Shown: positions 706-38,216 of the stretch, in pieces
Layout: every line of letters begins with the position of its first letter
How positions within the stretch are numbered: the first letter of the stretch is position 1
The notes under the pieces: model-generated
Seen by the model: the letters and a program-made list of their open reading frames with translations, nothing else
Databases searched by the model: none
Told to the model about the DNA's origin: nothing
Made by a program: the position numbers and the translations under genes
NCBI GenBank assembly: GCA_024279135.1
Contig: JAJRRU010000039.1
Coordinates: 62,001 to 126,000 of the forward strand
Length of the DNA stretch: 64,000 bases
Source: Alphaproteobacteria bacterium
GTDB lineage: Bacteria; Pseudomonadota; Alphaproteobacteria; Rhodospirillales; Casp-alpha2
Direction of reading: 5' to 3'

Positions 706-899
706 ATTTATTAATCCTAACCTAGCCCACTTAATAAAGATGGCGGAATAAGCATCACCGTAAATGGCTATCAGGTGAGAATATGCATATCCAGCATAGC
801 ATTATCATCAAATAACATTCGCTTAAGGTGACCAAACAGGCAACTATATAAAATAACATACACCGGGTTTGAGACTATACACACTTCGTGGAGCTTACA

Positions 900-2345: not shown

Positions 2346-2347
2346 GA

Positions 2348-11283: not shown

Positions 11284-11294
11284 GGAGAAAGAAA

Positions 11295-12242: not shown

Positions 12243-12276
12243 CGATTTAATTTTATTCGAGCGAGGAGATATTATC

Positions 12277-13209
12277 ATGTCTACCGAAGGAAAAGTTGTC
12301 ATCACCTGTGCCATAACTGGCGCAATTCACACCCCGACGATGACACCGTATCTTCCAATTACACCCGATGAGATCACCGCAGAGGCAATTGCCGCTGCTG
12401 AAGCTGGCGCGGCTATTTTACATCTCCATGCACGCGATCCGGAAACTGGCCAACCGGACCAGACACCCGAAGCTTTTGGTCGTTTTTTACCCCGGATCAA
12501 ACAGGGAACCAACGCGGCAATCAACATCACGACCGGCGGCAGCCCGTACATGAAGGTCGAAGAACGCGTTCTACCCGCGGCACAATTCGAACCTGAAGTC
12601 GCATCCCTGAACATGGGGTCAATGAACTTCGGTCTCTATCCGTTGTTAGATAAATACAAGGACTTCAAGTTTGAATGGGAGCGCGAACATCTTGAAGCCA
12701 CCCGCGATCTTGTCTTCCGCAACAGCTTTCAGAACATCGAATTTATTCTTGAAACCTGCTACAATAATGGCACACGTTTTGAATTCGAATGCTACGATAT
12801 TTCCCACCTTTATAATCTTTCACACTTTGCTGATCGCGGATTGGTTAAACCACCATTTTTTGTCCAATCGGTCTTTGGCCTTCTTGGCGGGATTGGATCG
12901 CACCCCGAAGATGTAGCACACATGAAGCGCACGGCTGATCGACTTTTCGGATCTGATTATCGTTGGTCGGTATTGGGTGCCGGTGCCAGCCAGTTGAGGA
13001 TTGCTGCACAAGCCGTTGCGCTGGGCGGAAATATCCGCGTTGGCTTGGAAGATAGTATCTGGGCGGGAAAAGGAATTCTCGCCAAATCCAACGTCGATCA
13101 GGTCAAATTAGCCCGCAAAATTATTGAAGGGCTGGGGATGCAGGTGGCGACCCCCGATGAAGCCCGGGAGATACTGGCTTTAAAAGGCGGCGATCAAGTC
13201 AACTTCTAA
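12277..13209 (+). CDS. beta-keto acid cleavage enzyme (BKACE, DUF849)
   Basis: A 310-residue TIM-barrel enzyme of the 3-keto-5-aminohexanoate cleavage family, which joins a beta-keto acid with acetyl-CoA to give acetoacetate and a shortened acyl-CoA. Visible signatures are CAITGAIHTPTMTPYLP at the N-terminus, the zinc-binding His pair in HLHARDPETG, INITTGG, and GLEDSIWAGKG with the catalytic acidic pair. ATG 12277 follows GAGGAG; a start at 12223 would lie inside the preceding gene. It directly follows the 3-hydroxyacid dehydrogenase. Specificity within BKACE varies widely, so the acid must be inferred from the operon: probably a 3-keto sugar acid. Confidence 0.92.
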   Translation: MSTEGKVVITCAITGAIHTPTMTPYLPITPDEITAEAIAAAEAGAAILHLHARDPETGQPDQTPEAFGRFLPRIKQGTNAAINITTGGSPYMKVEERVLPAAQFEPEVASLNMGSMNFGLYPLLDKYKDFKFEWEREHLEATRDLVFRNSFQNIEFILETCYNNGTRFEFECYDISHLYNLSHFADRGLVKPPFFVQSVFGLLGGIGSHPEDVAHMKRTADRLFGSDYRWSVLGAGASQLRIAAQAVALGGNIRVGLEDSIWAGKGILAKSNVDQVKLARKIIEGLGMQVATPDEAREILALKGGDQVNF

Positions 13210-22967: not shown

Positions 22968-24485
22968 TTAGTTTTTCACGGTGTCTTCCAGGAAGAACCG
23001 TCCGAGAGGGTTCTGGTAAAAACCCTCGATGTTGTTGCGTGATACATTGCGGTACGGGCTGTAGTAGAGATCAATCCAGTGAGCATCTTCTTTAGCGGTT
23101 TTCTGAATATCGATATACATCTGCTCGCGTTTCGCTGTATCCATTTCGACGCGGGCGTCAGATACCAACTGTTTGACCCTGTCATTATTGTACCGGGTCA
23201 TATAGTTCATGTTGGCATCATGTCCGACCACGAACGTGGTCTTTTGATCTGGATCCAGAATATCGTTGGTCCAGTACATGACAGACAGGTCAAATTCACC
23301 GTCGACCAGCATGTCCCAGGTCGTGCTCGAGTCCATCTTTCGCAGATTGACCGTTATGCCAGCTTCAGCAAGTTGTTGCTGTAAAAGCACAGCGATCTGT
23401 TCGTCTACTTCATCACCGGCATTGACCAGATAGTTAAGAGTCAGGTCGCTGGCACCGGCATCAGCCAGCATCTGCTTCGCCTTGGCAGGGTCATGTGGGC
23501 GCTTAAGGTTGTCGTAGTTGTGATAGAGGGCGCCTTTTGGAATAAAAGAGTAGGCGACTTCGCCAATGCCAAACGTTACAGCATCAACAATCGCCTGCTT
23601 ATCGATGGCCATATCCAGTGCCTGACGGACTTCTTTCTTAGCCAAGGCACCACTTTCATGGTTGATGAGCAGGTGATCTTCACGGGTTGAGGTATCAAGG
23701 TGGACCGTCAGATTTGGATCATTCCTAAGCTCTTCAATCCTTGAGAAAGGAACAAAGATCGCGGCATCCAACTCACCAGCCTGGATTTTCAGAACACGGG
23801 TGTTGTCGTCGGGGATAGCAATCCATTCAACACCATCCAGCTGAACCCGGTCAGCTTCCCAGAAATTGGGGTTTTTCTTCAAGATAACGCGGTCACCACG
23901 CATCCACTCGTCAACTGTGAAAGCGCCGGAAGCAACGGGATTCTCGGCATATGCTTCAACGCCCATACTCTCCATGCCCTTCTGGGAAATAATAGAGATA
24001 CCGGGCATAGCCAATGACGAAAGGAAAGGTGCAGACGCTTCCTTAAGCGTAACAACCAGCGTGCGGGTATCGGGTGCAGTCATTTTGTCAATGACCTGAT
24101 AGGATTCACTCCACAGGGAGCCAGCATCGTCTCGGATGCGGGTCAGGCTGAACATGGCGTCTGCTGCGGTGATTGTGGAGCCATCCGAGAATTTGGCATC
24201 ACGCATATGGAACGTGTAAACCAGACCATCGTCTGAAATATCCCAGCTTTCTGCGAGACCAGGTTCCATCTTGGAGCCGGTTTTATCTACTCGGACAAGA
24301 ACGTCATAGACATTTGCGAACACCCAGAAATCTATGTTCTGTGCCGTCGCAATCGGATCGAACGTCGAACTATCTTCACGGCGGCCAATGGTCAAGACGC
24401 CAGCGGCTTCGGCAGCTGCCGTGCCGAAGGCGATGAAAACCATCGTCACGGCAATGGCAAATCGTATCCATTTCTTCTGTATCAT
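22968..24485 (-). CDS. peptide/dipeptide-type ABC transporter substrate-binding protein
   Basis: A 505-residue family 5 (SBP_bac_5, DppA-like) periplasmic protein with a Sec signal peptide (IRFAIAVTMVFIAFGTAAAEA). The mature start LTIGRREDSSTFDPIATAQNIDFWVFANVYDVLV and the YTFHMRDAKFSDGSTITAADAMFSL segment are diagnostic. It is the last gene of a minus-strand operon that begins with the proline iminopeptidase, 59 bases behind the second ATPase gene, and ends at a strong terminator. In PipR-type systems a similar importer takes up the signal compound; by context this protein may bind an ethanolamine derivative or small peptide rather than a general dipeptide. That ligand is inference. Confidence 0.94.
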   Translation of the reverse strand: MIQKKWIRFAIAVTMVFIAFGTAAAEAAGVLTIGRREDSSTFDPIATAQNIDFWVFANVYDVLVRVDKTGSKMEPGLAESWDISDDGLVYTFHMRDAKFSDGSTITAADAMFSLTRIRDDAGSLWSESYQVIDKMTAPDTRTLVVTLKEASAPFLSSLAMPGISIISQKGMESMGVEAYAENPVASGAFTVDEWMRGDRVILKKNPNFWEADRVQLDGVEWIAIPDDNTRVLKIQAGELDAAIFVPFSRIEELRNDPNLTVHLDTSTREDHLLINHESGALAKKEVRQALDMAIDKQAIVDAVTFGIGEVAYSFIPKGALYHNYDNLKRPHDPAKAKQMLADAGASDLTLNYLVNAGDEVDEQIAVLLQQQLAEAGITVNLRKMDSSTTWDMLVDGEFDLSVMYWTNDILDPDQKTTFVVGHDANMNYMTRYNNDRVKQLVSDARVEMDTAKREQMYIDIQKTAKEDAHWIDLYYSPYRNVSRNNIEGFYQNPLGRFFLEDTVKN

Positions 24486-24544: not shown

Positions 24545-25546
24545 CTACGTGGGTTGTGGGAAAATACTTTCGGAAGAAAATATACAGGCGGACAGATGAC
24601 CGTCTTCGCCTCGGAGTGCAGGAACTGGACTGTCACGGCATTTGTCCTGTGCTATCGGGCACCGGGGGTGGAAGGCGCAGCCATTGGGCAGTGAAATTGG
24701 GCTCGGTGGTTCACCGCCCAAGAGCTGTTCAGGCAAAGGTTTGTCCGGGTCAATTTCCGGTATGGCGCTGATCAGAGACTGCGTGTAGGGATGGCACGGT
24801 GCGTTGAAAACCCGGTCTGTGGGGCCTTCTTCCACGATTCGACCCAGATACATAACTGCCACCCGGTCGCACAGGCGGCGCACGATGGCCAGATCATGGG
24901 CAATAAAGATCATGGATAACTTCATCTTCTCCCTTAGCTCAATGAGAAGATTTATGATCTGACCCTGGATCGATACGTCGAGAGCCGCAACACATTCGTC
25001 GGCTACAATAAGCCGGGGCTCAATGGCAAGTGCACGGGCAATGCCCACGCGCTGACATTGACCACCACTCAGATCAGCAGGGCGGCGCGACGCCAGTTCG
25101 GTGTCCATTCCCACCAGCGCAAGGAGTTCTTGCACGCGCTCGTTGAGCTTTGCTGTGGGAATCTTGTTGTGGACTGTGAGAACTTCGGCGATTGCATCTC
25201 CGACAGTCATACGAGGATTCAAGGCCCCATAGGGGTCCTGAAAGACCATTGCCGTTTCGCGCCGCAACCACGCAATATCTCCGCTCGTGCCATTGGCGAC
25301 CTCTACGCCATCAAACAGAACCGAGCCGGATGTCAACTCGCCCAGCCGCAGAATAGCGCGGCCAAACGTACTCTTGCCGCTACCTGACTCACCTACCAAC
25401 CCCAACGTCTCGCCAGAACGTATCGTCATCGACACCGAGTTGAGAGCTTTCACCGTTTGGTCTGAACGATTGAACAAGCCCATCGTGCTGCCAGCGAAGT
25501 GTACAACGAGATCGTTCACTTCAAGCAGTGGTACAGAGGAATTCAT
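24545..25546 (-). CDS. peptide ABC transporter ATPase, OppF/DppF type
   Basis: A 333-residue ATPase: Walker A GESGSGKSTF, Q-loop QDPYGALNPRMTV, signature LSGGQCQRVGIARA, Walker B IVADECVAALDVS and switch His in FIAHDLAIVRR. In the Walker B segment the usual DEPVSALD is DECVAALD, so Pro is Cys while the catalytic Glu stays. The C-terminal CAFHPRCPIAQDKC segment is the Cys-rich oligopeptide-transporter tail that binds an iron-sulfur cluster in relatives. It overlaps the partner ATPase gene by four bases. Confidence 0.95.
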   Translation of the reverse strand: MNSSVPLLEVNDLVVHFAGSTMGLFNRSDQTVKALNSVSMTIRSGETLGLVGESGSGKSTFGRAILRLGELTSGSVLFDGVEVANGTSGDIAWLRRETAMVFQDPYGALNPRMTVGDAIAEVLTVHNKIPTAKLNERVQELLALVGMDTELASRRPADLSGGQCQRVGIARALAIEPRLIVADECVAALDVSIQGQIINLLIELREKMKLSMIFIAHDLAIVRRLCDRVAVMYLGRIVEEGPTDRVFNAPCHPYTQSLISAIPEIDPDKPLPEQLLGGEPPSPISLPNGCAFHPRCPIAQDKCRDSPVPALRGEDGHLSACIFSSESIFPQPT

Positions 25547-26541
25547 GCCCTTCCCCCTTCATTGATTTCGCCAATCGGGTGATGGCAGGCCAGCATGTGG
25601 TTAGGCTGATAGTCGACCGCTGCAGGCTCTGTCTGTGCGCATTCTTTTGTGGCATGAGCACAACGTGGGTGAAAAGCGCAACCCGTTGGCATTGATCCCT
25701 GGCTGGGTGGTTGGCCAGCAATGGTCTTTACCAAGCCACGGTGCGAACCGCCACTGGGTTGGCAATCGATCAGACCAGTTGTGTACGGATGGTGGGCATC
25801 AAGAATGATTTCGCGCTTCGGCCCACGCTCACATATGCGCCCGCCGTACATGACGGCCACGGTATCGCACACCTGCGCCACCACACCCAGATCATGAGTG
25901 ATCAGAATAATTGAAAGTTCACGCTTCTCCCGCAGGTCCATGAGCAGGCGAAGAATCTGTGCCTGCACTGTAACATCCAAGGCGGTTGTCGGCTCATCGG
26001 CAATCAAAATTTCCGGGTTGCAGGCCAGCGCTACTGCGATCATCGCTCGTTGACGCATGCCGCCAGAAAACTCGTGTGGATAGTCATCTATTCGTTGGGC
26101 GGGGTCGGAAATACCTACCTGGTGCAGTATTTCTATGGCTCTATTGCGGGCTTCTGCACGGTTAACCTGATGATGATAACGAATACTTTCGGTGATTTGA
26201 CCACCAATGGACATAACCGGGTCCAGATGGCTGGAGGGGTTCTGGAAAATCATTCCGATGTCACCACCGCGGACTTTTCGCATGTCAGATTCTTCCAGAT
26301 GCGTCAGGTCTGATTTTCCGCGTAAAATAACTGACCCGCCGGAAATTGATATGCGCGAACTGGGTAATAACCCGATTATGGCGCGGCACGTCATACTCTT
26401 TCCCGAACCACTTTCGCCAACAAGCCCCAAAATCTCTCCGCGATTCAACTCAAACGAAACCCGGTCAACAAGTGTCTGTGGCCCTTGATCTGTTTTTGCG
26501 ATCACTGATAAGTCTCGCACACTGAGGACAGGAGGGCTCAT
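25543..26541 (-). CDS. peptide ABC transporter ATPase, OppD/DppD type
   Basis: A 332-residue ATPase with Walker A GESGSGKSMT, QNPSSHLDPVMS, signature FSGGMRQRAMIAVALA, Walker B ILIADEPTTALDVT and LITHDLGVVAQV. The C-terminus has the oligopeptide-type CAFHPRCAHATKEC cluster. It overlaps both neighbours by four bases (permease upstream, ATPase downstream), so stoichiometric synthesis is expected. It forms the ATPase heterodimer with the 24545-25546 product. Confidence 0.95.
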   Translation of the reverse strand: MSPPVLSVRDLSVIAKTDQGPQTLVDRVSFELNRGEILGLVGESGSGKSMTCRAIIGLLPSSRISISGGSVILRGKSDLTHLEESDMRKVRGGDIGMIFQNPSSHLDPVMSIGGQITESIRYHHQVNRAEARNRAIEILHQVGISDPAQRIDDYPHEFSGGMRQRAMIAVALACNPEILIADEPTTALDVTVQAQILRLLMDLREKRELSIILITHDLGVVAQVCDTVAVMYGGRICERGPKREIILDAHHPYTTGLIDCQPSGGSHRGLVKTIAGQPPSQGSMPTGCAFHPRCAHATKECAQTEPAAVDYQPNHMLACHHPIGEINEGGRA

Positions 26542-27392
26542 TGCCGCACCCCCAAGATTTCGCCCAGGCCATCAGCCAGCATGCTGAACCCCATGGCAAG
26601 CAAGACGATGGCAAGGCCCGGGAATGTGGTGATCCACCACCCGATGGTGATGAACCCCTGGCCTTCAGCGATCATGGTGCCCCATTCAGCCGTGGGTGGC
26701 TGGACCCCCAATCCCAAATAACTGATAGCCGCACCGTTGAGCAGTACAAGAACAGCATCGGACATAGAGAACACAATTGAGCCAAGGATCGCGTTGGGTA
26801 GAAGATGGCGGAACATCACGCGCTTATGGCTATAGCCGAGGCTGACAGCCGCAATGGCGAAATCAGAGTTTTTCAGTACCAGAAACTGAGCCCGGATCAA
26901 ACGGGCATAGGACACCCACCCAACCAAGGCCATAGCGACGTAGAAGCTACCCAGGCCTGGCCCCAGAATGACGATGATGGTCAGCATCAAGACCAGGAAT
27001 GGAAAGGCCAGGACCACATCGATCAGTCGCATGAGTACCATATCCACCCAGCCACCATAATAGCCGGCAATGCTGCCCACCGTTGTTCCGATCACGAATG
27101 CAAAAACGACCCCGAACGTGGCGATTTGCAAATCGATACGGGCACCCCAGATAACCCGTGACAGAACGTCACGCCCAAAATTGTCCGTTCCGAACGGATG
27201 AGCCATGCTGGGTGGCTTGAGCCGAACAGCCGCGTCCTGAAAGATTGGATCATAAGGTGCCAGCAAGGGAGCGAAAATGGCAACCAACAGCCAGCCACCG
27301 AGTATGGATATTCCAATGATGAGGGGCACCACACCACTATTGAATTTGAGCCGCCAGCCAAAGCGCGCGTTGACGGATCGTGAGATATTCAC
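26538..27392 (-). CDS. peptide ABC transporter permease, DppC type
   Basis: A 284-residue inner-membrane permease. An N-terminal OppC-type leader (about residues 1-50, one helix IIGISILGGWLLVAIFAPLLAPYDP) precedes HPFGTDNFGRDVLSRVIWGARI, the hallmark of DppC proteins, and five further helices. The EAA loop region is AVSLGYSHKRVMFRHLLPN. It overlaps the partner permease (27389) and the ATPase gene by four bases each. Confidence 0.95.
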   Translation of the reverse strand: MNISRSVNARFGWRLKFNSGVVPLIIGISILGGWLLVAIFAPLLAPYDPIFQDAAVRLKPPSMAHPFGTDNFGRDVLSRVIWGARIDLQIATFGVVFAFVIGTTVGSIAGYYGGWVDMVLMRLIDVVLAFPFLVLMLTIIVILGPGLGSFYVAMALVGWVSYARLIRAQFLVLKNSDFAIAAVSLGYSHKRVMFRHLLPNAILGSIVFSMSDAVLVLLNGAAISYLGLGVQPPTAEWGTMIAEGQGFITIGWWITTFPGLAIVLLAMGFSMLADGLGEILGVRQ

Positions 27393-28327
27393 AACTTCAC
27401 CCGTGGGTCAATGGTTACGGTCAATACATCGGCCATGAAATTTACGAATACCGTGGCGCAGGCAAACGTCATAGCGACGCCTTGCACCACCATGTAGTCG
27501 CGGGTGAAAATACCCCGGATCAGTAACTGGCCCATGCCGGGAATGGCAAAAACGCTTTCGATGACCACTGTGCCGCTGATGAGCCAACCGATGTTTATGG
27601 CCAGTAGATTTACAGTCGGGACGAGCGAATTAGGCATGACATGACGCCAGAATACGACACTTTCCGGCAGTCCTCTGGCTCTGGCCGCTGTAGCCTGATC
27701 GGAATGTAGCTCTGCTAGAATGCTGGCCCTTAAATTCCGGGTCAGTACTGCGGATAAGGCCAGTGCGACTGTCAGCCAGGGCAAAATCATGTGGTGAAGT
27801 TTCTCGCCAAAGGTTTTGCCATACCCGGCTACTGGGAACAGGTCCAATTGTATGCTGAACAGCAGGATCAACATGATTGCCAGCCAAAAGGCCGGAAAAC
27901 CAAGCCCGGCGGTCGACATCAATCGGATAATGTGGTCGACCGGACGACCACGATACTTGGCTGCGATGGCGGCCAATGGCACGGCTATCAACAGGGCAAG
28001 AAGGACGCTGCCGCCAACCAACACGAGCGTTGGTTCAATTCTGGTGCCGATCAATTCCAGGACGTCGATTTTGTAAAGTATCGATCGGCCCATTTCGCCC
28101 TTAAATAGATTTTCGATGAAATAGAAATATTGCGTCCAGAGTGGCTCATCCAGACCGAATTGGGCGCGAATTCGCAATATGGACTCAGGTGTTCCGCGCG
28201 CGCCCAGAAGTGCCCTCACCGGATCACCCGGAATAGAACGGACGAGAACAAAGATAATGATGCTGATGCCGATCAGAACCGGCAGCAGCTGTATGGGTCG
28301 GTAGAGGATGAATCTATACCGGTGCAT
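27389..28327 (-). CDS. peptide ABC transporter permease, DppB type
   Basis: A 312-residue inner-membrane permease with six helices. The N-terminus RYILYRPIQLLPVLIGISIIIFVLVRSIPGDPVRALLG is typical of DppB, and the EAA loop is ATAARARGLPESVVFWRHVMPNSLVPT. It starts five bases behind the stop of the iminopeptidase gene and overlaps the DppC-type gene by four bases, tying transport to the peptidase in one transcript. Confidence 0.95.
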   Translation of the reverse strand: MHRYRFILYRPIQLLPVLIGISIIIFVLVRSIPGDPVRALLGARGTPESILRIRAQFGLDEPLWTQYFYFIENLFKGEMGRSILYKIDVLELIGTRIEPTLVLVGGSVLLALLIAVPLAAIAAKYRGRPVDHIIRLMSTAGLGFPAFWLAIMLILLFSIQLDLFPVAGYGKTFGEKLHHMILPWLTVALALSAVLTRNLRASILAELHSDQATAARARGLPESVVFWRHVMPNSLVPTVNLLAINIGWLISGTVVIESVFAIPGMGQLLIRGIFTRDYMVVQGVAMTFACATVFVNFMADVLTVTIDPRVKL

Positions 28328-28332
28328 AATTA

Positions 28333-29226
28333 TCAGTCTTTGCTACTATTTCGGACCAGAAAATCCAGTAGAACAGGGAAGAAGGCGTGCGGTTCCTCAA
28401 AGAACGGCATATGGCTTGAGTTCGGGAATACATGTAATTCCGCTTGCGGCATTTGTTCCTTCATTCTAAGTGCACAGGCTGGTGTCAATTCGTCATGCTG
28501 TCCTGTGGTGATCAGAACCGGTGCAGTGATCTTGTGAAGGTCAGGAACACGGTTCCAGTCTTTCAAATTGCCGGTGTACAGGAACTCGTTTGGGCCTTGT
28601 ATGGCCATATAGGGGCCCATATTCCAGTCATTCAAGGAACGCTGTACAGGCGCTGGCCAATCACTCAACCGGCATACATGCCGATAGTTCAACAAGGTTA
28701 TGGCAGCCTGATACTCGGGGTGGTCAAGCGTTCCCTCCGCTTCGTGTCGCTGCATCATTGCCACCGTTTCTGAACCGAGAGCAGCCCGCAAACGATGGAG
28801 TTCTGATACCAGATGAGGGATATCGGCCACAGTGTTTTCCAGAATCAAAGATTTCAAGGCTTCTGGGTGGGTCAGGGCATAGTCGATTGCCATCCATCCA
28901 CCCCAGGATTGGCCCACCAAATGAACCTTGCCCAGGCCGAGGGTCTGTCGAACGGTTTCAGCTTCCGCCACGTATCGCTCAATGGTCCACAGTGAGTCAT
29001 CATCTGGGCGATCCGAGAATCCCGTGTCCAGTTGATCATAAGCAACCACGCGATAGCCTTCTAACTTAAGGCATGAATGTGAGTCCCGCAGATAGTCACA
29101 CGGTAGGCCAGGGCCACCATTCAAACACAGGACTACTTCGTCGCCCTCGCCAAAACTATAGGTTTTTATGGTGTAACCATCGACGGTTACGTCCTGACAT
29201 TCATCGGGTTCCAGTTCTTGCCACAT
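28333..29226 (-). CDS. pip: proline iminopeptidase-family alpha/beta hydrolase
   Basis: A 297-residue cytoplasmic serine hydrolase of peptidase family S33. The oxyanion-hole motif is LNGGPGLPCDYL near residue 40, the nucleophile Ser is in VGQSWGGWMA near residue 110, the acid in GQHDELTP and the His in SSHMPFFEEP. ATG 29226 is chosen for the strong GGGAGGAAGA site before it; a longer frame to 29325 has none. It heads the peptide ABC operon and is divergent from a LuxR solo. This pip-luxR pairing with a peptide importer is the hallmark of OryR/XccR/PipR signalling loci, where PipA-type enzymes act on the imported signal compound. General peptide trimming is the alternative. Confidence 0.9.
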   Translation of the reverse strand: MWQELEPDECQDVTVDGYTIKTYSFGEGDEVVLCLNGGPGLPCDYLRDSHSCLKLEGYRVVAYDQLDTGFSDRPDDDSLWTIERYVAEAETVRQTLGLGKVHLVGQSWGGWMAIDYALTHPEALKSLILENTVADIPHLVSELHRLRAALGSETVAMMQRHEAEGTLDHPEYQAAITLLNYRHVCRLSDWPAPVQRSLNDWNMGPYMAIQGPNEFLYTGNLKDWNRVPDLHKITAPVLITTGQHDELTPACALRMKEQMPQAELHVFPNSSHMPFFEEPHAFFPVLLDFLVRNSSKD

Positions 29227-29392
29227 GGTCTTCCTCCTCCCGTTAGTCTTCTTATTGCTGCGGTTTTCCGCTAATTTTTTAAACAATGACTCTAGGCTTT
29301 GGATCAGCGGCTGCATACCCCTCAAATCTTATGGGTTGGATTTGATTTGTCCGGACGCGCGACCTGTGGCTAAATATGTGATATAAACAGCT

Positions 29393-29414
29393 TTGACCAC
29401 CTAACGGTGACCAA
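29393..29414. promoter_or_regulatory. imperfect dyad, candidate LuxR binding site
   Basis: TTGACCACCTAACGGTGACCAA is an imperfect 22-base dyad (7 of 11 positions pair) about seven bases before the LuxR start and in the divergent region shared with the iminopeptidase operon. Length and symmetry resemble a lux-type box, but the match is weak. Confidence 0.25.
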
Positions 29415-29420
29415 GAACAG

Positions 29421-30206
29421 ATGTTTAGGACACAGGAGATGCTTGAGACTCTTGATCAATTGGAAGGGATGTTCGTCGGCAATAATACGCTCGACGGTGC
29501 AATTGATATCGCACTCAGCCAAGTCAATGAACTGGGTTTCAGTACCTTAATCTATGATTATAGCCCGGTTGCGACGGCACTGAATGGTGAACTTATTACG
29601 CCGTCCTATGTCAATATGCGAAACGTCCCGGATGATATGGTCGATTTGTGGTGCCATGGGGGGTTTTATCAGCGTGATCCTGTGCAACAGATGGCATTGG
29701 CCTCGGCCAAGCCGTTCATATGGTCTTATCGCCGCAACAAGAACTCCACGGCGCTGGCAGACTGCCTGACCGAAAAACATCAGCCGGTCGCCTCCTATTT
29801 ACATGATGCCGATCTTATCAGCGGGGTGACCGTTCCTATTCAGCGAACCCGTGGCGACTTTGCGACCTGCACCGCTATTTGGCATGGTGCGCGCACGACC
29901 TTCGAAAAGGACGCCCGGCAAAACCTGTCAATATTTGCGCTTATTGGCCATGTTTTTCATGAACATGCGTATACGTTATTCAGCAAACAGCAGCGCCGTG
30001 GCAACTATGTTCATCTGACGCCGCGCGAGCAGGAATGCCTACGCTATTCAGCGGACGGTCTAACCGCCAAGGAAATAGCCTATCGACTCGACCGTTCCGT
30101 ACCAACCATCACGCAGCATCTTCAGACAGCAGCAAACAAACTTGGTGCACGGAACCGCGTACATGCCGTAACGCTGGCCCACCATTACCGACTACTGGAA
30201 TCGTGA
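29421..30206 (+). CDS. LuxR-family solo regulator, plant-signal (OryR/XccR/PipR) subgroup
   Basis: A 261-residue regulator with an autoinducer-binding domain (about 20-175) and a C-terminal GerE helix-turn-helix (LTPREQECLRYSADGLTAKEIAYRL). Aligned to TraR, the ligand pocket keeps D70, P71, W85 and G113 (here D86, P87, W101, G135) but has Met at the W57 position (M73) and Trp at the Y61 position (W77). These two swaps define LuxR solos that answer plant-derived compounds instead of acyl-homoserine lactones. No luxI-type synthase is in the window. The gene is divergent from pip and the peptide importer, the arrangement seen with PipR. The ligand is therefore probably an exogenous eukaryote-derived molecule; PipR itself answers an ethanolamine derivative. 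Confidence 0.9.
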   Translation: MFRTQEMLETLDQLEGMFVGNNTLDGAIDIALSQVNELGFSTLIYDYSPVATALNGELITPSYVNMRNVPDDMVDLWCHGGFYQRDPVQQMALASAKPFIWSYRRNKNSTALADCLTEKHQPVASYLHDADLISGVTVPIQRTRGDFATCTAIWHGARTTFEKDARQNLSIFALIGHVFHEHAYTLFSKQQRRGNYVHLTPREQECLRYSADGLTAKEIAYRLDRSVPTITQHLQTAANKLGARNRVHAVTLAHHYRLLES

Positions 30207-30485
30207 CGGTGTCGTAATGCGATTGCGTCGAGTTTCCTCAATTGATAACTATAAAATCTCAAGCCGATGTTGCTTTGCATGGCAGATGTGGCCCAATATT
30301 GGAGGCAAGTTCATCATATAGAAGACCGCTCCGTCTGAACGATCAGTTACAGGGGCCCGGGATCTTGCAAAGGCTCGGACGGTCTTCAGAGCAGATAACC
30401 CTAGTACAGAAAAAATACAGAGATGAACACAGTATTGAAAGCAACTCTGTAATTCACAACACAAGCCTGAGCTGGCAACCGGGTG

Positions 30486-31571
30486 CTAAATACCCAGTGC
30501 CATAACCTGATCATTGGCAACGAGCAGTCCGACAGATGCGCCCACTTGATGAACCTTGTTCCCCTTGTGATGTGGATCATCAACAAGGATGGTTTCGCCC
30601 GAGACATCGATCGCATAACGTACGATACTACCAAGAAACTCCATATGTATCACCCTGCCACTCATAGCAGTATTATTGCCGTTTGATGCAATTGGGTCAT
30701 CGCTGATCCTGACGTTCTGGGGCCTGAAGATGATTGACCGCACATCTTTGCCGGCTTTATCAAATGGGATGGTCGTTCCCCCTTTCGTGCGAAATACAGT
30801 TTCTCCACCCGTTTCATGAAGTTCACCCGCCAGCACATTTACGGTGCCCAGAAAGTTGGCGACGAATAGATTATGCGGTTTATCATACAATTCCACAGGG
30901 GTGCCAATTTGTTGGATAACCCCCTGATCAAGAACGGCCATGCGATCTGAAATTGTATTGGCCTCTTCCTGGTCATGAGTCACAAATATAGTCGTCAATT
31001 TGAGCTTCTGTTGCAGTTCACGGATATCACGCCGCATCTGCACACGTAAATTGGCATCCAGATTGGATAACGGCTCATCCAGCAACAAAACCCGAGGTTC
31101 TATCACGATGGTCCGGGCGAGGGCTATGCGCTGTTGCTGCCCGCCCGATAGCTGTGACGGTCTGCGATCCGCCAGATCGAGAAGTCCGACCATGTCCAGC
31201 GCTGCATCGACTCGATTATTGATCTCCGGCGTTGCAATTTTGCGTTCTTCCAGTCCGAAGGATACGTTTTGCCTGACCGTCATATGCGGCCACAAGGCGT
31301 AGCTCTGGAACACCATCCCCACATTGCGCTTCCATGGCGGCAGGTGGGCAACTTCATCGCCGCCGATCAGGATTTTTCCGCCGGGTGTGGGACCGAACCC
31401 GGCAATGGCCCGCAACAGAGTTGATTTGCCCGAGCCTGATGGACCGAGGAAGGCAAAAAACTCTCCCTGTTTGATTTCAAGATCAATCCCCTTCAGGACG
31501 TGCGTATTACCAAAGGACAGGGTTAATCCCTGAATACTGACACCTGCCGCCTGTGTCTCAATTTTCGTCAT
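30486..31571 (-). CDS. ABC transporter ATPase (FbpC/AfuC type)
   Basis: A 361-residue ATPase with Walker A GPSGSGKSTL, Q-loop QSYALWPHM, signature LSGGQQQRIALART, Walker B VLLLDEPLSNLD, His in VTHDQEEANTIS and a C-terminal TOBE domain with FRPQNVRISD. It overlaps the fused permease gene by four bases and is the last gene of the transporter operon. Family members energise import of iron, polyamines, phosphonates or sugar phosphates; the linked Pgt-like control genes favour a phosphorylated organic compound. Confidence 0.94.
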   Translation of the reverse strand: MTKIETQAAGVSIQGLTLSFGNTHVLKGIDLEIKQGEFFAFLGPSGSGKSTLLRAIAGFGPTPGGKILIGGDEVAHLPPWKRNVGMVFQSYALWPHMTVRQNVSFGLEERKIATPEINNRVDAALDMVGLLDLADRRPSQLSGGQQQRIALARTIVIEPRVLLLDEPLSNLDANLRVQMRRDIRELQQKLKLTTIFVTHDQEEANTISDRMAVLDQGVIQQIGTPVELYDKPHNLFVANFLGTVNVLAGELHETGGETVFRTKGGTTIPFDKAGKDVRSIIFRPQNVRISDDPIASNGNNTAMSGRVIHMEFLGSIVRYAIDVSGETILVDDPHHKGNKVHQVGASVGLLVANDQVMALGI

Positions 31572-33286
31572 GGTGTTGCTCCTTCTGTTACCGGGACTGA
31601 CGCCTCGCGTGCGCGCTTGCTGCGTTCAATGATGCGATGGGACATGTATGTACCAAAGCCGACAAACAAGACGGCTATGATACCCAGCGCTGCACCTGGA
31701 CCGCGCCCCGATGCCGATTGCATGTATTCGTAAATTCCGAAAGCCAGAGGCGCATCGGATTCAGTTGCCACAAGCATAATAGTTGCTGACAGCTCGACAG
31801 AAGCGGTGGCAAAACTGGTAACGAAACCGGCCAGAATGCCACCTGACATCAATGGCACAACAATCCGCCATACGGTGCGGCTTTTGGTTGCCCCCACGTT
31901 TTCTGCGGCCTCCTCGAGCATGATGCTGACCTGTTGCAGAGCGGCCATGCACGATCGCAGGGCATAGGGCAGCCTACGGATAGTCAATGCAATAACGATA
32001 ATAACCCACCAGGAAGCCAACGGCTTGTCAATGAGCGGGACATCGACACTGTGGAACAGCCGGAGATAACCGATGCCCAGAACAACTCCGGGTACGGCCA
32101 GTGCCGCCGTTGCACCATAGTCCAGCCATTTGCGACCCCGGATCCCTGTGCGTAAAACGACATAGGCGATGGCCGTCCCCAAGATAACATCGAAAGTTGC
32201 AGCCAGTCCCGCGTAGAGCAAGGTGTTGGTGATGTACTGCGAAGCACTGCTAAACACGGTGATATAATGATCGAAGGTGTAGGCATCCGGTAAAACCGCA
32301 TATGACCAGATTGTTCCAAAGGAAAGCAGGAAAAGACCGATGTGGGGTGACAACACAAGCATCAGGATAAAGATAACCAGTGAATAGCACCCGATTTTTT
32401 CCCAGAAGCGAAGGTCGCGCTTCATCAGTCCGCCACCGCCTTTTTGTGTGGTTGCGTAGTCTTTGCCCTTAAGTGCAAGCAGGGACACATACAGCGATAA
32501 CAAAGAGAAACCGACCAGGATTACAGAAATCACATACCCCATGGGATCTGAAATCCCTATGGATGTAATACGAAGAAAGGCCTGCGGGGCCAGCATGTTG
32601 TTAACGTTGAGCAACAAGGGGGTGCCCAGGTCATCAAAGACTTTGATAAAGACCAGCGCAGCACCGGCCACATATCCCGGCATAGCCAATGGAAATACAA
32701 TACGGCGGAACAACCGTAACCCGCTGGACCCCAAATTCTGTGCTGCCTCTTCCATTGAACGGTCAATATTTACCAGTGCGGCGGAAAGGTTAATCAGGAT
32801 GAACGGGAAATAGTGAATACTTTCAACGAAGATCACCCCATTCAGGCCTTCCATAAACGGGATCGTAAATCCAAACCATTCATCGAGTAACAGATTGACC
32901 GAGCCATTGCTGCCAAACAACAATTGCATGGCTACGGCCCCGACAAAGGGGGGCATGATCAAGGGAATAATGCCAAGAGTCTGGATAATCAAAGCCCCGC
33001 TAAAATTGAACCGGGTTGTGAAATAGGCAAGTGGTACCGAGATGAGTGTGGCCACCAACACCGACATTATGGCAACGTAAAATGAGTTAAAGAAAGATTC
33101 TTGAAACAATGATGTATTAAAAAAATCGACAAAGTTAATAAACGTAAATTCGCCAGTCGCGGGATCCTGAAAGGCGACGAAGATAACTTTGAGCACGGGC
33201 AAGGCCAAAAACAAAATCAGGAACAGGGCGATGATAATCCCAATAGTAGCCGGGCCGCGCTGAACGGATGAGATTGGCTGTGCCAT
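31568..33286 (-). CDS. fused double ABC permease (FbpB/AfuB type)
   Basis: A 572-residue inner-membrane protein made of two BPD_transp_1 halves in one chain, each with about six helices and an EAA loop (MEEAAQNLGSSGLRLFRRIVFPLAMPG in the first half and LEEAAENVGATKSRTVWRIVVPLMSGG in the second). A short cytoplasmic linker (about 275-295, KGKDYATTQKGGGG) joins them. One polypeptide thus replaces two permease subunits, as in FbpB and AfuB. It starts behind CCGGAGA, 91 bases downstream of the binding-protein stop with a hairpin between. Confidence 0.93.
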   Translation of the reverse strand: MAQPISSVQRGPATIGIIIALFLILFLALPVLKVIFVAFQDPATGEFTFINFVDFFNTSLFQESFFNSFYVAIMSVLVATLISVPLAYFTTRFNFSGALIIQTLGIIPLIMPPFVGAVAMQLLFGSNGSVNLLLDEWFGFTIPFMEGLNGVIFVESIHYFPFILINLSAALVNIDRSMEEAAQNLGSSGLRLFRRIVFPLAMPGYVAGAALVFIKVFDDLGTPLLLNVNNMLAPQAFLRITSIGISDPMGYVISVILVGFSLLSLYVSLLALKGKDYATTQKGGGGLMKRDLRFWEKIGCYSLVIFILMLVLSPHIGLFLLSFGTIWSYAVLPDAYTFDHYITVFSSASQYITNTLLYAGLAATFDVILGTAIAYVVLRTGIRGRKWLDYGATAALAVPGVVLGIGYLRLFHSVDVPLIDKPLASWWVIIVIALTIRRLPYALRSCMAALQQVSIMLEEAAENVGATKSRTVWRIVVPLMSGGILAGFVTSFATASVELSATIMLVATESDAPLAFGIYEYMQSASGRGPGAALGIIAVLFVGFGTYMSHRIIERSKRAREASVPVTEGATP

Positions 33287-33319
33287 TTATTATCTCCGGA
33301 AAATTAAGTTGAAAGATTG

Positions 33320-33355
33320 GGGTTCGAGGCCCAGGAGAGATCAGGCCTCGAACCC
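33320..33355 (-). terminator. hairpin between binding-protein and permease genes
   Basis: GGGTTCGAGGCC (33320-33331) and GGCCTCGAACCC (33344-33355) form a perfect 12-pair stem with a 12-base loop. The minus-strand tail is only weakly T-rich (CAATCTTTC), so mRNA stabilisation or partial termination behind the binding-protein gene is more likely than full termination. Confidence 0.55.
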
Positions 33356-33377
33356 AATAGGTTAGCATTGTATATGC

Positions 33378-34712
33378 CTAGAGCATGGATTTGGCTTTTT
33401 CAGCGAGAGCCTTGGCCTTGGCGTAATTGGCCTTAACCATTTCATCCCATTTCTGCTCGACTTCAGCCTGACGTCCGGCAACCTTGTCCGTTGCCTTTTT
33501 GCGTTTTTTGGTAAAAATGGCACTGAAATCAGGGTCATTGGCTGTCGCCTCATCGATGGGCAATTCGCTGATCAAGGCGCGCGCCTCGGTGATCAGTTTT
33601 TTCGCACCGGCGTTGGATTGACCCGCAAGCGCCTTTTCTGCGTCCTGAATAGCCTTGGTTGCCTCGCGTAAATCATTAAGGCGATAGGTAATCATCACAT
33701 CGAACAGGGAATTGACGACATTGTACCGGTTCTTGGAAAGTGCCAGATCGAATTTAACGGCAGAGCCGATAGAACTATCTTTAAACGGATTTGGGAAATC
33801 AGCCGGTGCCTTGGCATAGGTTTCCGGGTTGACAGGCAAGCGGCGGATTTTCGGGTCGAGCAGAAGTTCCTGCCCCTGCGTTGAGAGCAAGAAATCCACG
33901 AAAGCACCTGCGGCTTCGGGGTTGGGGCCATTTTTAACCAAAGCAATATTGGCGGGCACCAGTGTTGTTACAGTCGGGTATACAAATTCAACCGGGAAGC
34001 CCGATGCCTGGGAAGACAGGCCGAAGAAGTCGATGACCACACCAAGGCCGAAATTGCCGCTGTTGACACCGTCGGGCACACCGAAGCTCCGTTCGGTGAC
34101 GGTTTTGAAGTTGCCGGCAATGGCTTTCCATTCGGCCCAGCCTGCATCCCAACCCAAACCTTGAATCAGAGTTTCAACAGTCAGGTGTGTGGTTCCGGAT
34201 CGTGACGGTGCGCTCATACCTACATGACCAAAATACTCCGATTTTTTCAGGTCTGCCCATTCTTTGGCGGGAAGGAGTTTTTTGGCTTTCAGGTAACGTG
34301 TGTTCCACATGATACCGTAACCGGATGCTGCGAAACCCAGGTAATACCCATCCGGGTCATTGATTGGGAATGCACCAACCTTTTCCGGGATGCCCGAAAC
34401 GTTTGACTTGTATTTGACCAGCAAGTCGCTGTCTTTCAGGACCTCAAAGGCATCTGGCGCAGAGGCCCAGAACATATCGGAATTATTATTATCCGAGGTT
34501 TCCTGAAGATACTTGATCCCTGCTGATGTCTTTTTCTTCAGCATCTCGACTTTAAGGCCGGGATATTTGCTTTCAAATGCTTTCTTGAATGTTCCCGTGG
34601 TATCCGTTGGATACGAGGTCACGATCGTCAACGTGCCTTCAACAGCCATGGCGGCTGAAGATATCAGTGAAAGACCGAGGGCGGCCGCACATAATATTGA
34701 TATATATTTCAT
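33378..34712 (-). CDS. ABC transporter substrate-binding protein, paralogue of the PgtC-like protein
   Basis: A 444-residue periplasmic binding protein of the iron/PgtC/AfuA fold. The signal peptide is YISILCAAALGLSLISSAAMA; the mature start LTIVTSYPTDTTGTFKKAF, the KKKTSAGIKYLQET segment and FWASAPDAFEVLK closely match the 38216-39640 product. About 100 residues of charged helix follow the usual two lobes, again as in the paralogue. ATG 34712 follows GGGAGTG; the frame extends to 34763 without a good start. The gene lies behind an exact sigma-54 core promoter (34779-34793), so it is the probable target of the adjacent NtrC-type regulator. The ligand is likely an organophosphate by family comparison; this is inference. 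Confidence 0.92.
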   Translation of the reverse strand: MKYISILCAAALGLSLISSAAMAVEGTLTIVTSYPTDTTGTFKKAFESKYPGLKVEMLKKKTSAGIKYLQETSDNNNSDMFWASAPDAFEVLKDSDLLVKYKSNVSGIPEKVGAFPINDPDGYYLGFAASGYGIMWNTRYLKAKKLLPAKEWADLKKSEYFGHVGMSAPSRSGTTHLTVETLIQGLGWDAGWAEWKAIAGNFKTVTERSFGVPDGVNSGNFGLGVVIDFFGLSSQASGFPVEFVYPTVTTLVPANIALVKNGPNPEAAGAFVDFLLSTQGQELLLDPKIRRLPVNPETYAKAPADFPNPFKDSSIGSAVKFDLALSKNRYNVVNSLFDVMITYRLNDLREATKAIQDAEKALAGQSNAGAKKLITEARALISELPIDEATANDPDFSAIFTKKRKKATDKVAGRQAEVEQKWDEMVKANYAKAKALAEKAKSML

Positions 34713-34778
34713 TAAATACACTCCCGTTATGAATTGCCAATGCTGTGCTTCATGCGACAGCATGCGACCCCTTAGGTA

Positions 34779-34920: not shown

Positions 34921-36273
34921 CTATCGATAATCATCACGCCGCAAGCCATTTTTCTGCATACGGAGGTACAGGGTCTTTCGAGAAAGCCCCAGTGCGTCGG
35001 CGGTTTCTCCGATCCGGCCACCATGTTCATTCAGGGCATTGGCAATAACCGAGCGTTCAAACTGGTCGACCTGGTCGGACAGTGTTCCCTTAACCGACCC
35101 GGTAGTATTAACGGTATCAGGATCTGCGCCGCCTGCCCGTGACATGCCGAGCACAAATCGTTCGGCCGCATTGCGAAGTTCACGCACATTTCCGGGCCAG
35201 GCTCGTTGCATTAAATTACGAATACGCTCAGCCGTGATTTCTGGCTTGGGTCGCCGGTAACGTGTGGCAGCGGCGTCTGCAAACTGGTTAAACAAAAGGA
35301 GGATATCAGCCTGGCGGTCACGCAGCGTTGGCAGCTCAATACTCGCCACATGGAGGCGGTAATAGAGATCTTCGCGGAACGATCCATTATCAGAGGCTTC
35401 CAGCAAATTAATTTTTGATGCAGCAACGACGCGGATATCCACAGGTATTGACTGATTGCCCCCCAGTCTTTCAATGGTCCGTTCCTGAAGAACCCGGAGA
35501 ATTCGGACCTGAATTGCGGGTGCCATGCTCTCGATCTCATCGAGAAACAGGGTGCCGCCATTAGCATATTCAATTTTACCGATGCGCTGTTTTGTTGCCC
35601 CCGTAAAAGCACCGGGTTCATGCCCGAATAGTTCGCTTTCAATAACACTTTCGGGTAAAGCACCGCAATTCAGGGCGACAAAACGGTTCTTTCGGCGGGA
35701 ACCAAAATCGTGAAGACAGCGTGCTATCAGTTCCTTTCCGGTCCCCGTTTCTCCGACGATCAGAATATCAACCTGGGTATCGGCCAAATCCATAGTGGCG
35801 GTGCGCAGCTTGTCCATGACCGGGGTTTTACCGATAATCCGTCGCTCCATTTCACTGAGGGAGTCAATCTCCAGGCGAAGGCCACGGTTTTCAATTTCAA
35901 GCCTTCGCTTATCCAGGGCGCGACGAACCACATCAATCAGGTGATCAGGATCGGCCGGTTTTTCAATAAAGTCATATGCCCCTTTACGCATGGCGTGTAC
36001 GGCCAGGGAAATATCGGCGTGACCGGTGATTAAAATGACCGGGACCGCCGGGTCAATCTCTAGCACTTTATCCAACAGTGCGATGCCATCCATGTTCGGC
36101 ATTTTAATATCACTGACAATGATACCCGGCCAATTATGGGTCAGGTGATTGAGGGCCAATTCAGCCCGGTCCAGCGCGATTGTATTAAACCCTTCAATTT
36201 CCAGAGTTTGACAGCCTGACAGGCGGACCTCTTCTTCATCGTCAATAAACAGAATTTCCCCCATGGCGGTCAT
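34921..36273 (-). CDS. sigma-54-dependent response regulator (PgtA/DctD type)
   Basis: A 450-residue NtrC-family activator. The receiver domain has the acidic pair D11-D12 and the phospho-accepting Asp near residue 55 ([13 protein letters not shown]). The AAA+ domain follows (about 140-380) with Walker A GETGTGKE, the sigma-54-contacting GAFTGA loop, and Walker [11 protein letters not shown]. The C-terminal Fis-type helix-turn-helix is [21 protein letters not shown]. It shares one base with the kinase gene upstream (TAATG), making kinase and regulator a coupled pair. The target is probably the importer operon beginning just downstream, which has a sigma-54 promoter and a palindrome. Confidence 0.95.
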
Positions 36274-38216
36274 TATAAATCACTCCCCGGAACCTTATCG
36301 AGAACAATGGTGAATGTTGTTCCTGTATCTTCTTTGCTTTTTACACGCATCGAGCCCTTGAAGTCCTTGATGATATTATATGAGATACTCAAGCCTAATC
36401 CCAACCCTTCACCAACTTGTTTCGTCGTGAAGAATGGATCAAAAACATGCTCGAGGTTATCGTCGGCAATACCGCTTCCGGTATCGGTTATGAGCATTTC
36501 TACCCGTTTGGTATTCTCAATGATCTCTATTCCAAACTCGCGCCGCGACCTTCCTGTCATGGCGTCGATAGCATTACCAAACAGATTTATCAGCACCTGT
36601 TCCAACCGGATGGCTTCGGCCTGAATAAATATATCGTGGCCAGGGAACGTCCTGGTTATGGATATATCTTCATCACGAAAGCGAATATCGAGAAGAGACA
36701 TGGCGTCCTCGCATACGGCTTTTACATCAACGGGTTCAAGATCGGAAGAAGACCGCCGTGCGAGGGTTCTCAAATGATTAATCGTCCCACCCATTCGTTC
36801 CGTCAAACGTGAAATTTTTTCCAGTGTTTGGATCGCCTCTGGTCCCTGGTTCATTTCGATCAAGCGCCGCGAGTTATGGGCATATGACCTGAGAGCCGCA
36901 AGGGGTTGATTGAGCTCGTGGGCCACACCGGCCGATAATTGGCCGAGGGCCGCCAGCTTGCCGGCCTGAACAAGTTCGGCCTGGGTGTCGGCCAGCTTAT
37001 CGCGAAATGTACGAAGGGAGACTGCCATGGCACCTATTTCATCTCTGCCTTCAACGGGTACATTTGCCTTTAAATCCCCATCCGCAATCGAGTGCATGCT
37101 GGAATTGAGCCGTATAATTCGGCCAACCATATTTCGGCCAACATACAGCCAGACAATGAGCACCGCAAACAACAGGCTGGCCCCGACGGTTGCCAGCATT
37201 AATGCCTTACCCTGGCGAATGGATTGCTGGGACTTGTTGGTTGCGGCTTTTGCGATGGACCTCGCAAGTTGGACACGGGCCGCAATCAAGCTGCCGAGAT
37301 TATGGACTTGCTCACGATTCCGTTCGAGAAGCACGCTGCCATTTTTCTGTGTTTCGAGTTCATCATGGCGAAGCCCGAACAGGCTTTTTTCTCCTTCGGA
37401 AAATGAAAGGATATCCTCAATGGCCTGGCGTAGAGAAATAATGCCGGGCATTTCCTTTATATTCTTTAAATTGTCCGTGACCCGGGTCTGCACTTCACGC
37501 AAATAAAGTTCTGTTGCACGAAGCGAGTCAAAGTCCGCCAGGTTGGCCGCCCGGCCAATTAACCCAATCAATAAATTGCCGTCGGCATTAATTCGAAGCA
37601 GGGCTTGCTGATTGTCTGAAGCCCTCTTTAATATTATTTCACTTCTGCCGATGCGAATACTGCCGGTGTTCGATGCATTCTGCTCAAGGGTGATATCGAT
37701 AATAAATTTAATATCATCGAGCATGGGCTCAACTTCATCCAGAAAGTCGGCCGATACCCAACGCAAGCGTTCCATCAGCTCTTCTTTCTGAGAACTGTAC
37801 CATAATTTACGACGGACATTCTCGTCTAGATCCCGAAGATTGGAGCTCAGGGCTGCAACCAGATCTTTCAGGCTCTCATGGGATGCAGTGTCGCGAACAT
37901 CATTGTCTAATTCTTCATTAAATTTACTCATGAGGGTCAGGTTTCTGGACAGCTCCTTCCAGATACGGTCCCGTTCGGATTCGTTCGGAGCTGCCGCAAG
38001 GGCTGGTGCCATACCGATAATAGCAGAACCCTCTTCAGCCAGTTCTGTAACCAGCGTCATGGCCGGAATGTTTGTCTCAACAACCTGATTTAAGCTATCA
38101 CCCAGCCGTGTATAGAAAACCCAGCCAATAATACTGGCAGCAACAGTCATGGCGGCGACGGCCCCGAAGGCCAGGAATAATCTGCCACGAATACCGATTC
38201 GGACCGGGACTTCCAT
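36273..38216 (-). CDS. membrane sensor histidine kinase (PgtB-like)
   Basis: A 647-residue kinase. A first membrane helix (about 11-35), a long periplasmic helical region (about 36-335), a second helix (around residue 345) and a HAMP linker (IADGDLKANVPVEGRDEIGAMA) precede the HisKA box, where H433 in GVAHELNQPLAAL is the phosphorylation site. The HATPase domain has NLFGNAIDAM, DTGSGI and GLGLGLSISYNI. The large periplasmic part suits contact with a ligand-loaded binding protein, such as the PgtC-like product encoded just before it (genes share one base). Confidence 0.94.
   Translation of the reverse strand: MEVPVRIGIRGRLFLAFGAVAAMTVAASIIGWVFYTRLGDSLNQVVETNIPAMTLVTELAEEGSAIIGMAPALAAAPNESERDRIWKELSRNLTLMSKFNEELDNDVRDTASHESLKDLVAALSSNLRDLDENVRRKLWYSSQKEELMERLRWVSADFLDEVEPMLDDIKFIIDITLEQNASNTGSIRIGRSEIILKRASDNQQALLRINADGNLLIGLIGRAANLADFDSLRATELYLREVQTRVTDNLKNIKEMPGIISLRQAIEDILSFSEGEKSLFGLRHDELETQKNGSVLLERNREQVHNLGSLIAARVQLARSIAKAATNKSQQSIRQGKALMLATVGASLLFAVLIVWLYVGRNMVGRIIRLNSSMHSIADGDLKANVPVEGRDEIGAMAVSLRTFRDKLADTQAELVQAGKLAALGQLSAGVAHELNQPLAALRSYAHNSRRLIEMNQGPEAIQTLEKISRLTERMGGTINHLRTLARRSSSDLEPVDVKAVCEDAMSLLDIRFRDEDISITRTFPGHDIFIQAEAIRLEQVLINLFGNAIDAMTGRSRREFGIEIIENTKRVEMLITDTGSGIADDNLEHVFDPFFTTKQVGEGLGLGLSISYNIIKDFKGSMRVKSKEDTGTTFTIVLDKVPGSDL

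Follow-up and report, generated by a model that had tools for sequence, protein, structure and literature searches.

What does a LuxR-type receptor perceive in an alphaproteobacterium of the order Rhodospirillales in whose genome no synthase for acyl-homoserine lactones (AHLs) is found, and which genes does it serve? This question is raised by a locus lying in a 64,000-nucleotide stretch of DNA (henceforth the window) from a 3.65 Mb draft genome of 39 contigs that is 98% complete. The features on which the argument turns, in window coordinates, are the following:

29421..30206, plus strand: LuxR solo assigned to the OryR/PipR subfamily, 261 aa, with pocket residues M73, W77, Q89, V123 and L127
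29317..29336, no strand, luxR-aapA intergenic region: candidate operator ACCCCTCAAATCTTATGGGT, a degenerate copy of the family palindrome
28333..29226, minus strand: predicted aapA-type proline iminopeptidase-family hydrolase, 297 aa (TIGR01250, 274.7 bits against a cut-off of 167.65)
27389..28327, minus strand: aapB-like peptide ABC permease, OppB type (PF00528)
26538..27392, minus strand: aapC-like peptide ABC permease, OppC type (PF00528, OppC_N)
25543..26541, minus strand: aapD-like ABC ATPase, OppD type (PF00005 and oligo_HPY)
24545..25546, minus strand: aapE-like ABC ATPase, OppF type (PF00005 and oligo_HPY)
22968..24485, minus strand: predicted AapF-type periplasmic substrate-binding protein, family 5 (phmmer against the PDB)

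The product of the receptor gene combines an autoinducer-binding domain (PF03472 Autoind_bind; E 6.7e-22, 78 bits) with a DNA-binding GerE domain (PF00196; E 3.8e-14, 52.5 bits), both above cut-off. It is the sole PF03472 protein that a profile search found in the host genome, and a search of the same 39-contig draft with the AHL-synthase profile PF00765, which was positive in all three plasmid records carrying such a synthase, found no luxI. The protein was hence correctly termed a LuxR solo in the initial annotation, and the pairing of these two domains without a cognate luxI is a trait of the OryR/PipR subfamily. PF00765 likewise had no match in the genomes of four of the five nearest relatives. 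The genome of Tobar14m (L040, G700) codes for an OryR-type LuxR and has two AHL-synthase matches on other contigs, so that receptors of this type are not restricted to luxI-less genomes. A structural model of the window LuxR (mean pLDDT 90) superimposed on RhlR (VIA-align Z 20.7, rmsd 5.5, 238 aligned) and on TraR 1l3l (Z 16.8, rmsd 4.9, 227 aligned), showing a LuxR-family fold. Among viral contigs we recovered two weak matches to the protein, both confined to its DNA-binding part.

We numbered the ligand pocket by alignment to TraR (234 aa, a 100% match to the traR of pGV2260). This alignment recovers the two swaps originally noticed by eye, namely W57 to M73 and Y61 to W77, and the four residues said to be kept, with D70, P71, W85 and G113 corresponding to D86, P87, W101 and G135; further pocket changes are Y53 to V69, V73 to Gln, F101 to Val and A105 to Leu. 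Positions 57, 61, 73, 101 and 105 constitute the specificity patch described for OryR/PipR receptors in two studies (PMC3821632; PMC7301841). The patch is complete in the window LuxR as M/W/Q/V/L, a combination present in 72 of 88 family rows, the window counted. W61 is found in all 88 of these rows and M57 in 79, the other nine, which are all the Pseudomonas rows of the family, being W57/W61. Six of seven other plasmid LuxRs (TraR, SdiA, three encoded beside an AHL synthase and one from Salipiger) have W57/Y61, and the remaining one, from Sulfitobacter, has W57/V61. Given these distributions, the M73/W77 swaps are not a matter of chance. Tyr53 is absent from the 88 family rows counted and present in all six comparison rows listed, and in place of the AHL-receptor signature W57, Y61, Y53 the window LuxR has M, W and V.

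In these alignments W61 is the constant swap of the OryR/PipR family and M57 an inconstant one. The initial annotation had held that both residues define the subgroup, PipR included, a statement that stands for W61 and fails for M57 on account of PipR and the nine Pseudomonas rows. PipR of Pseudomonas GM79 is described as retaining the conserved tryptophan at 57 (PMC4981722), and a second paper places W104 of PipR where PsrR has methionine (PMC7301841). The misattribution has a source, in that a review attributes M and W to the entire subclass, PipR among them (PMC10134790). One divergent LuxR retrieved by the profile searches of the order and class (L157, genome G679) is W57/W61 without a pip gene or importer in the stretch read and was excluded from the family; this suggests that W61 by itself does not identify a family member. 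At the variability patch (49/53/58/62) the window LuxR is alone among the 88 rows in reading NVVC, and its ligand may therefore differ in detail. Its pocket core, DPVWLGT, occurs in 8 of the 88 rows and departs from the majority form (74 rows) at position 110 alone, with Leu in place of Met.

The tree comprised 52 rows from named genomes and plasmids, namely the window LuxR, 33 of the 87 other family members and 18 other LuxRs, the family being represented by sequences other than OryR, XccR, PsoR, PipR and NesR themselves. A branch supported at 100/100 separates the 34 OryR-family rows from the 18 others; the program flagged long branches among the latter and between the family and one of these. 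The window LuxR is united with its counterpart from OFTM192 (80% identical) at 100/100, the pair is joined by Tobar14m (a Rhodospirillum MAG), Roseibium marinum and Rhodobacterales BW5 at 98/92, and Hyphomicrobiales UR115 follows at 99/96, so that the protein clusters with the OryR/PipR subfamily regardless of taxonomy. Among the matches listed (60 of 287 records), plasmid-borne proteins divide into two bands by similarity to the window LuxR: 42-50% identity in the subfamily band and about 31% or less over comparable length for other plasmid LuxRs, one 41.5% row aligning only across the DNA-binding quarter. These results bear directly on the possibility of an eavesdropping solo that responds to AHLs through a pocket tuned to unusual ones. 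Such a receptor would share the fold that the window LuxR has in common with RhlR, QscR, SdiA and TraR, and would account for the retained D70, W85 and G113; nevertheless, W57, Y61, Y53, V73, F101 and A105 are all replaced, the phylogenetic check proposed at the outset places the protein with the non-AHL subfamily at 100/100, and PipR and OryR do not answer AHLs according to the GM79 study (PMC4981722). We accordingly reject an AHL-type receptor on pocket residues and tree, and regard it as highly improbable.

The strongest evidence, which had escaped the initial annotation, is the neighborhood. The genes for the peptidase, two permeases, two ATPases and the binding protein are divergent from luxR and closely packed, the aapC-like gene overlapping each neighbor by 4 bases, and all seven reading frames are open. 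An adjacent proline iminopeptidase (pip) gene is a further hallmark of the OryR/PipR subfamily. The ORF list starts this gene at a TTG at 29325; an ATG at 29226 that follows GGAGG fits the starts of the three AapA proteins compared. With 71-73% identity to three AapA-type proteins and 34-36% to five of the PipA type, the peptidase is of the former kind, and it has in place GQSWGG and the later D and H, which we take to be the triad of the proline iminopeptidase family. Downstream, the letters of aapD and aapE were given by gene order. The binding protein has a signal-peptide-like start by eye and in a phmmer search of the PDB matched AapF (7kz8/7kz9) at 764 bits, the next best match scoring 175 bits. 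With AapF of Pseudomonas PDC86, described as bound to HEHEAA in structure 7KZ9 (PMC11168924), it shares 69% identity; its own model is middling (mean pLDDT 77). By these sequence comparisons the protein is of the AapF type, encoded in an operon ordered as aapB-F. Residues, tree and neighbors, and more weakly the candidate operator discussed below, thus support membership of the window LuxR in the OryR/PipR subgroup, as originally suggested for a plant-signal receptor.

To place this arrangement, we compared 86 loci picked for their resemblance to a set of aligned pip-linked LuxRs used as seed (the best 80 of 220; L003 and L037 are one contig), a selection by which the counts speak for a context shared among close relatives and not for every member. 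A pip gene lies beside luxR in all 86, divergently in 77, downstream in 77 and on both sides in 68; the nine loci without the divergent copy are from Rahnella and six Pseudomonas, together with L108 and L040 (cut). The aapB-like permease is 68-92% identical to the syntenic product in 83 of the 86, about 30% in two, and has no counterpart in one cut locus, while 81 encode an AapF-type protein with at least 66% identity, three loci ending before it and two having a distant one. Hence the expectation that the gene context widens the picture does not hold: pip with a peptide ABC importer is the canonical arrangement, and we rejected a novel gene context. As a separate observation, L033, L108 and a further genome (L151) link an OryR-type LuxR and pip to a different peptide ABC importer, with a binding protein about 25% identical to AapF, which points to a second importer type in the family.

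On the other side of the window luxR, where most relatives have a pip gene, no pipA was found downstream, and aapA is the only gene of the host genome above the TIGR01250 cut-off. Nine of the compared loci have no downstream pip: L003, L037 and L079 end early, and the rest (L033, L052, L065, L074, L086 and L109) are from Aureimonas, Mangrovicella or Jiella. That side of the window is instead occupied by a minus-strand set at 30486-34763 coding for an ABC importer (ATPase, permease and binding protein), with best profile scores, below cut-off, for PhnT2/PhnU2/PhnS2 (2-aminoethylphosphonate); it is followed by genes for a sigma-54 response regulator and a histidine kinase at 34921-38216. Elsewhere in the window, on the plus strand, are genes for an aldehyde dehydrogenase and a GMC oxidoreductase (888-3973), and for an SDR, a 3-hydroxyacyl-CoA-dehydrogenase-like protein and a BKACE protein (10480-13209), sets that presumably resemble those for choline and carnitine breakdown.

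Among known systems, the closest match in organization is PipR-AapA-F of Pseudomonas GM79, which is described with a LuxR solo having W61 and a divergent aminopeptidase, two permeases, two ATPases and AapF in the same order (PMC4981722). Unlike that system, the window locus has M57 where PipR has W57 (the PipR residue as given in the literature), has no pipA on the other side and has a degenerate operator, and its owner is an alphaproteobacterium. The OryR-family loci of Rhizobium and Phyllobacterium share M57/W61, the AapA-type pip and, at about 68-75% identity, the permease and binding protein of the importer; in contrast, most of them carry a second, downstream pip, and their LuxRs are only 45-49% identical to that of the window. 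NesR of Sinorhizobium meliloti is grouped with these loci on the strength of the literature, and OryR and XccR of Xanthomonas share the subfamily-defining residues and the adjacent pip by literature description (PMC4338825). The nearest counterpart is OFTM192, a Rhodospirillales MAG (L037), with LuxR 80% and AapA 91% identical, the same divergent arrangement and the same operator block. Its contig breaks off within the importer genes on one side and some 360 bases past luxR on the other, and an other-strand frame begins right after luxR, so that it has no pip directly downstream.

A palindrome with the consensus AcCTATcAgatcTgATAGgT is strongly enriched upstream of luxR in 51 family regions, the window included, of less than 60% ungapped identity, with a log-likelihood of 582 against 33-38 in three shuffles run with fewer restarts, a value to which the relatedness of the genomes contributes. 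This consensus has the CT(N12)AG that is described as the signature of known lux boxes (PMC4338825). The candidate site of the window, ACCCCTCAAATCTTATGGGT, is without the CT(N12)AG bases and scores 11.9 bits on a matrix of 14 distinct sites from other genomes, a score attained in 18 of 5000 resamplings of the intergenic region; it ranks third on the plus strand of the 64 kb, two other sites being slightly higher. The exact pattern of the window and OFTM192, which has AGCCCTCAAATCTTATAGGG at the matching position, occurs once in the whole genome; allowing up to three mismatches there are 10 matches, the exact one included, versus 8 in a backward control. In the recognition helix, Gln235 is confined to the window and OFTM192 among the 88 rows (Asn in 80), and Gln232 and Asn239 are found in the window alone. 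Thus, over residues 224-245, the helix departs at Q232, Q235 and N239, and the operator half-sites depart from CTAT towards CCCT/CCCA. The candidate operator and the recognition helix may have changed together, a lead that comes from one lineage. A consensus scan of 29200-30500 found no sigma-70 consensus promoter; the same region has two terminator-like sites, where shuffled sequence gave a mean of 1.1, and a search of 28000-31000 against Rfam gave no match.

Might these departures instead mark a ligand-independent regulator, or a remnant decaying after horizontal transfer? The missing pipA, the weak operator, the scattered occurrence (in 2 of the 37 genomes of the taxonomic family) and the three recognition-helix letters that are rare or unique in the OryR/PipR family would agree with this. 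On the other hand, the seven open frames, the near-consensus pocket core with its single departure at 110, and the retention of the set in a second genus (LuxR 80%, AapA 91% and AapB 92% identity) argue against it, and we deem it very improbable.

Taken together, we consider it probable that the window locus constitutes a signal-uptake circuit of the PipR/OryR type. By analogy with GM79 and PDC86, the AapF-type protein would bind a small peptide-like or ethanolamine-derived compound in the periplasm, and the Aap ABC transporter would import it. In the cytoplasm the compound would bind the LuxR solo, in whose pocket the lactone-reading residues are replaced, and the loaded receptor would then bind the candidate palindrome at 29317-29336 and activate transcription of the aapA-F operon, divergent from luxR. 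As a member of an aminopeptidase family, AapA would then trim the imported peptide or signal and damp the response as the GM79 peptidases do. Here the loop would act on aapA-F alone; since there is no pipA and one such site was found, it probably operates locally, governing import and the use of peptides. What the sequence of the locus itself gives is the kind of receptor and its pocket, the types of importer and peptidase, the order of the genes and the candidate site. The need for import, the activation of peptidase genes and the damping are carried over from GM79, where Aap import of the signal is reported to be needed, an aapB mutant being blind to it, and where the receptor activates peptidase genes and peptidase mutants over-respond, the peptidases acting as dampers (PMC4981722). 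The ligand cannot be carried over in the same way, because a close homolog of the importer binding protein does not bind HEHEAA (PMC10134790), and PsrR of Kosakonia gave no response to HEHEAA or root macerate (PMC7301841).

The same circuit might alternatively serve nutrition, with the receptor sensing imported peptides or amino-alcohols of any origin and controlling their use, and no host signal being involved. This differs from the signal-uptake circuit in the meaning of the ligand, and the probabilities of the two overlap; we give it an appreciable, minority chance. The adjoining genes do code for a peptide importer and a peptidase, PipR is reported to answer protein hydrolysates and Ser-His-Ser as well (PMC4981722), and the owner and its nearest relatives are without an established plant life. 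Conversely, Ser-His-Ser is described as active in GM79 only at relatively high concentration (PMC4981722), HEHEAA is given as the identified inducer there (PMC10134790), and the specificity patch is conserved.

The signal-uptake circuit has a sporadic distribution. At E <= 1e-30 the receptor is matched in six of 317 genomes of the order, one of which (G044) is of the W57/Y61 type, and in five of 385 genomes of an even draw of the class, three of which, the host genome included, have the M/W pocket; the profile matches in G044 and G516, both W57/Y61, are not family members. A close relative occurs in two of the 37 genomes of the taxonomic family, the host genome counted and the second being OFTM192, and none in a same-genus genome that is 78% complete. 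Within this part of the class the receptor is thus uncommon and scattered, probably through transfer or loss. The five nearest relatives, which include Roseibium marinum and two metagenome bins, have none named as a plant isolate, and Roseibium marinum is of marine origin. As a marine marker we tried the DMSP lyase family PF16867, whose matches are no proof of DMSP cleavage: it has two genes above cut-off in the host genome (G000:C31:32422-32865 and G000:C19:436934-437362) and is found in three of the five nearest relatives and in four of 21 other family members. These four are three Rhizobium and one Phyllobacterium, so the profile does not separate the groups and does not show habitat. NqrA, looked for as another marine marker, was not found.

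Hence, we have here a known kind of system in a new owner, on a patchy branch that comprises a Rhodospirillales MAG, Roseibium marinum and others; what is mildly new is the owner, the absence of pipA, and the altered operator and recognition helix. The initial annotation had described the subgroup as known mostly from gamma- and betaproteobacteria with some rhizobia, a description that needs amending in that a 2015 survey already places Rhodobacter and Citreicella, alphaproteobacteria outside the rhizobia, in this group (PMC4338825). Among the papers listed from the open-licence literature on marine and algal settings and on the strain names, no report of the OryR/PipR family in Rhodospirillales appeared, and no paper retrieved by strain name dealt, to judge by its title, with these genomes. 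According to a review of 31,034 proteobacterial genomes, the subgroup-0 (plant-associated-bacteria, PAB) solos all come from plant or terrestrial bacteria (PMC10134790). A complete receptor-peptidase-importer set in a lineage that counts Roseibium marinum among its relatives calls this boundary into question, and the window locus, with one peptidase and one candidate site, is a simple version in which to ask the identity of the ligand. As a speculative and less probable extension, a putatively aquatic branch made up of the window lineage, OFTM192, Tobar14m, Roseibium marinum, BW5 and UR115 might sense ethanolamine- or peptide-type compounds of phytoplankton or algae through Aap, with the window lineage as a stripped form that is without pipA and in which operator and recognition helix have shifted jointly. 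If true, algal partners would come within the reach of a circuit hitherto ascribed to plant and terrestrial bacteria alone.
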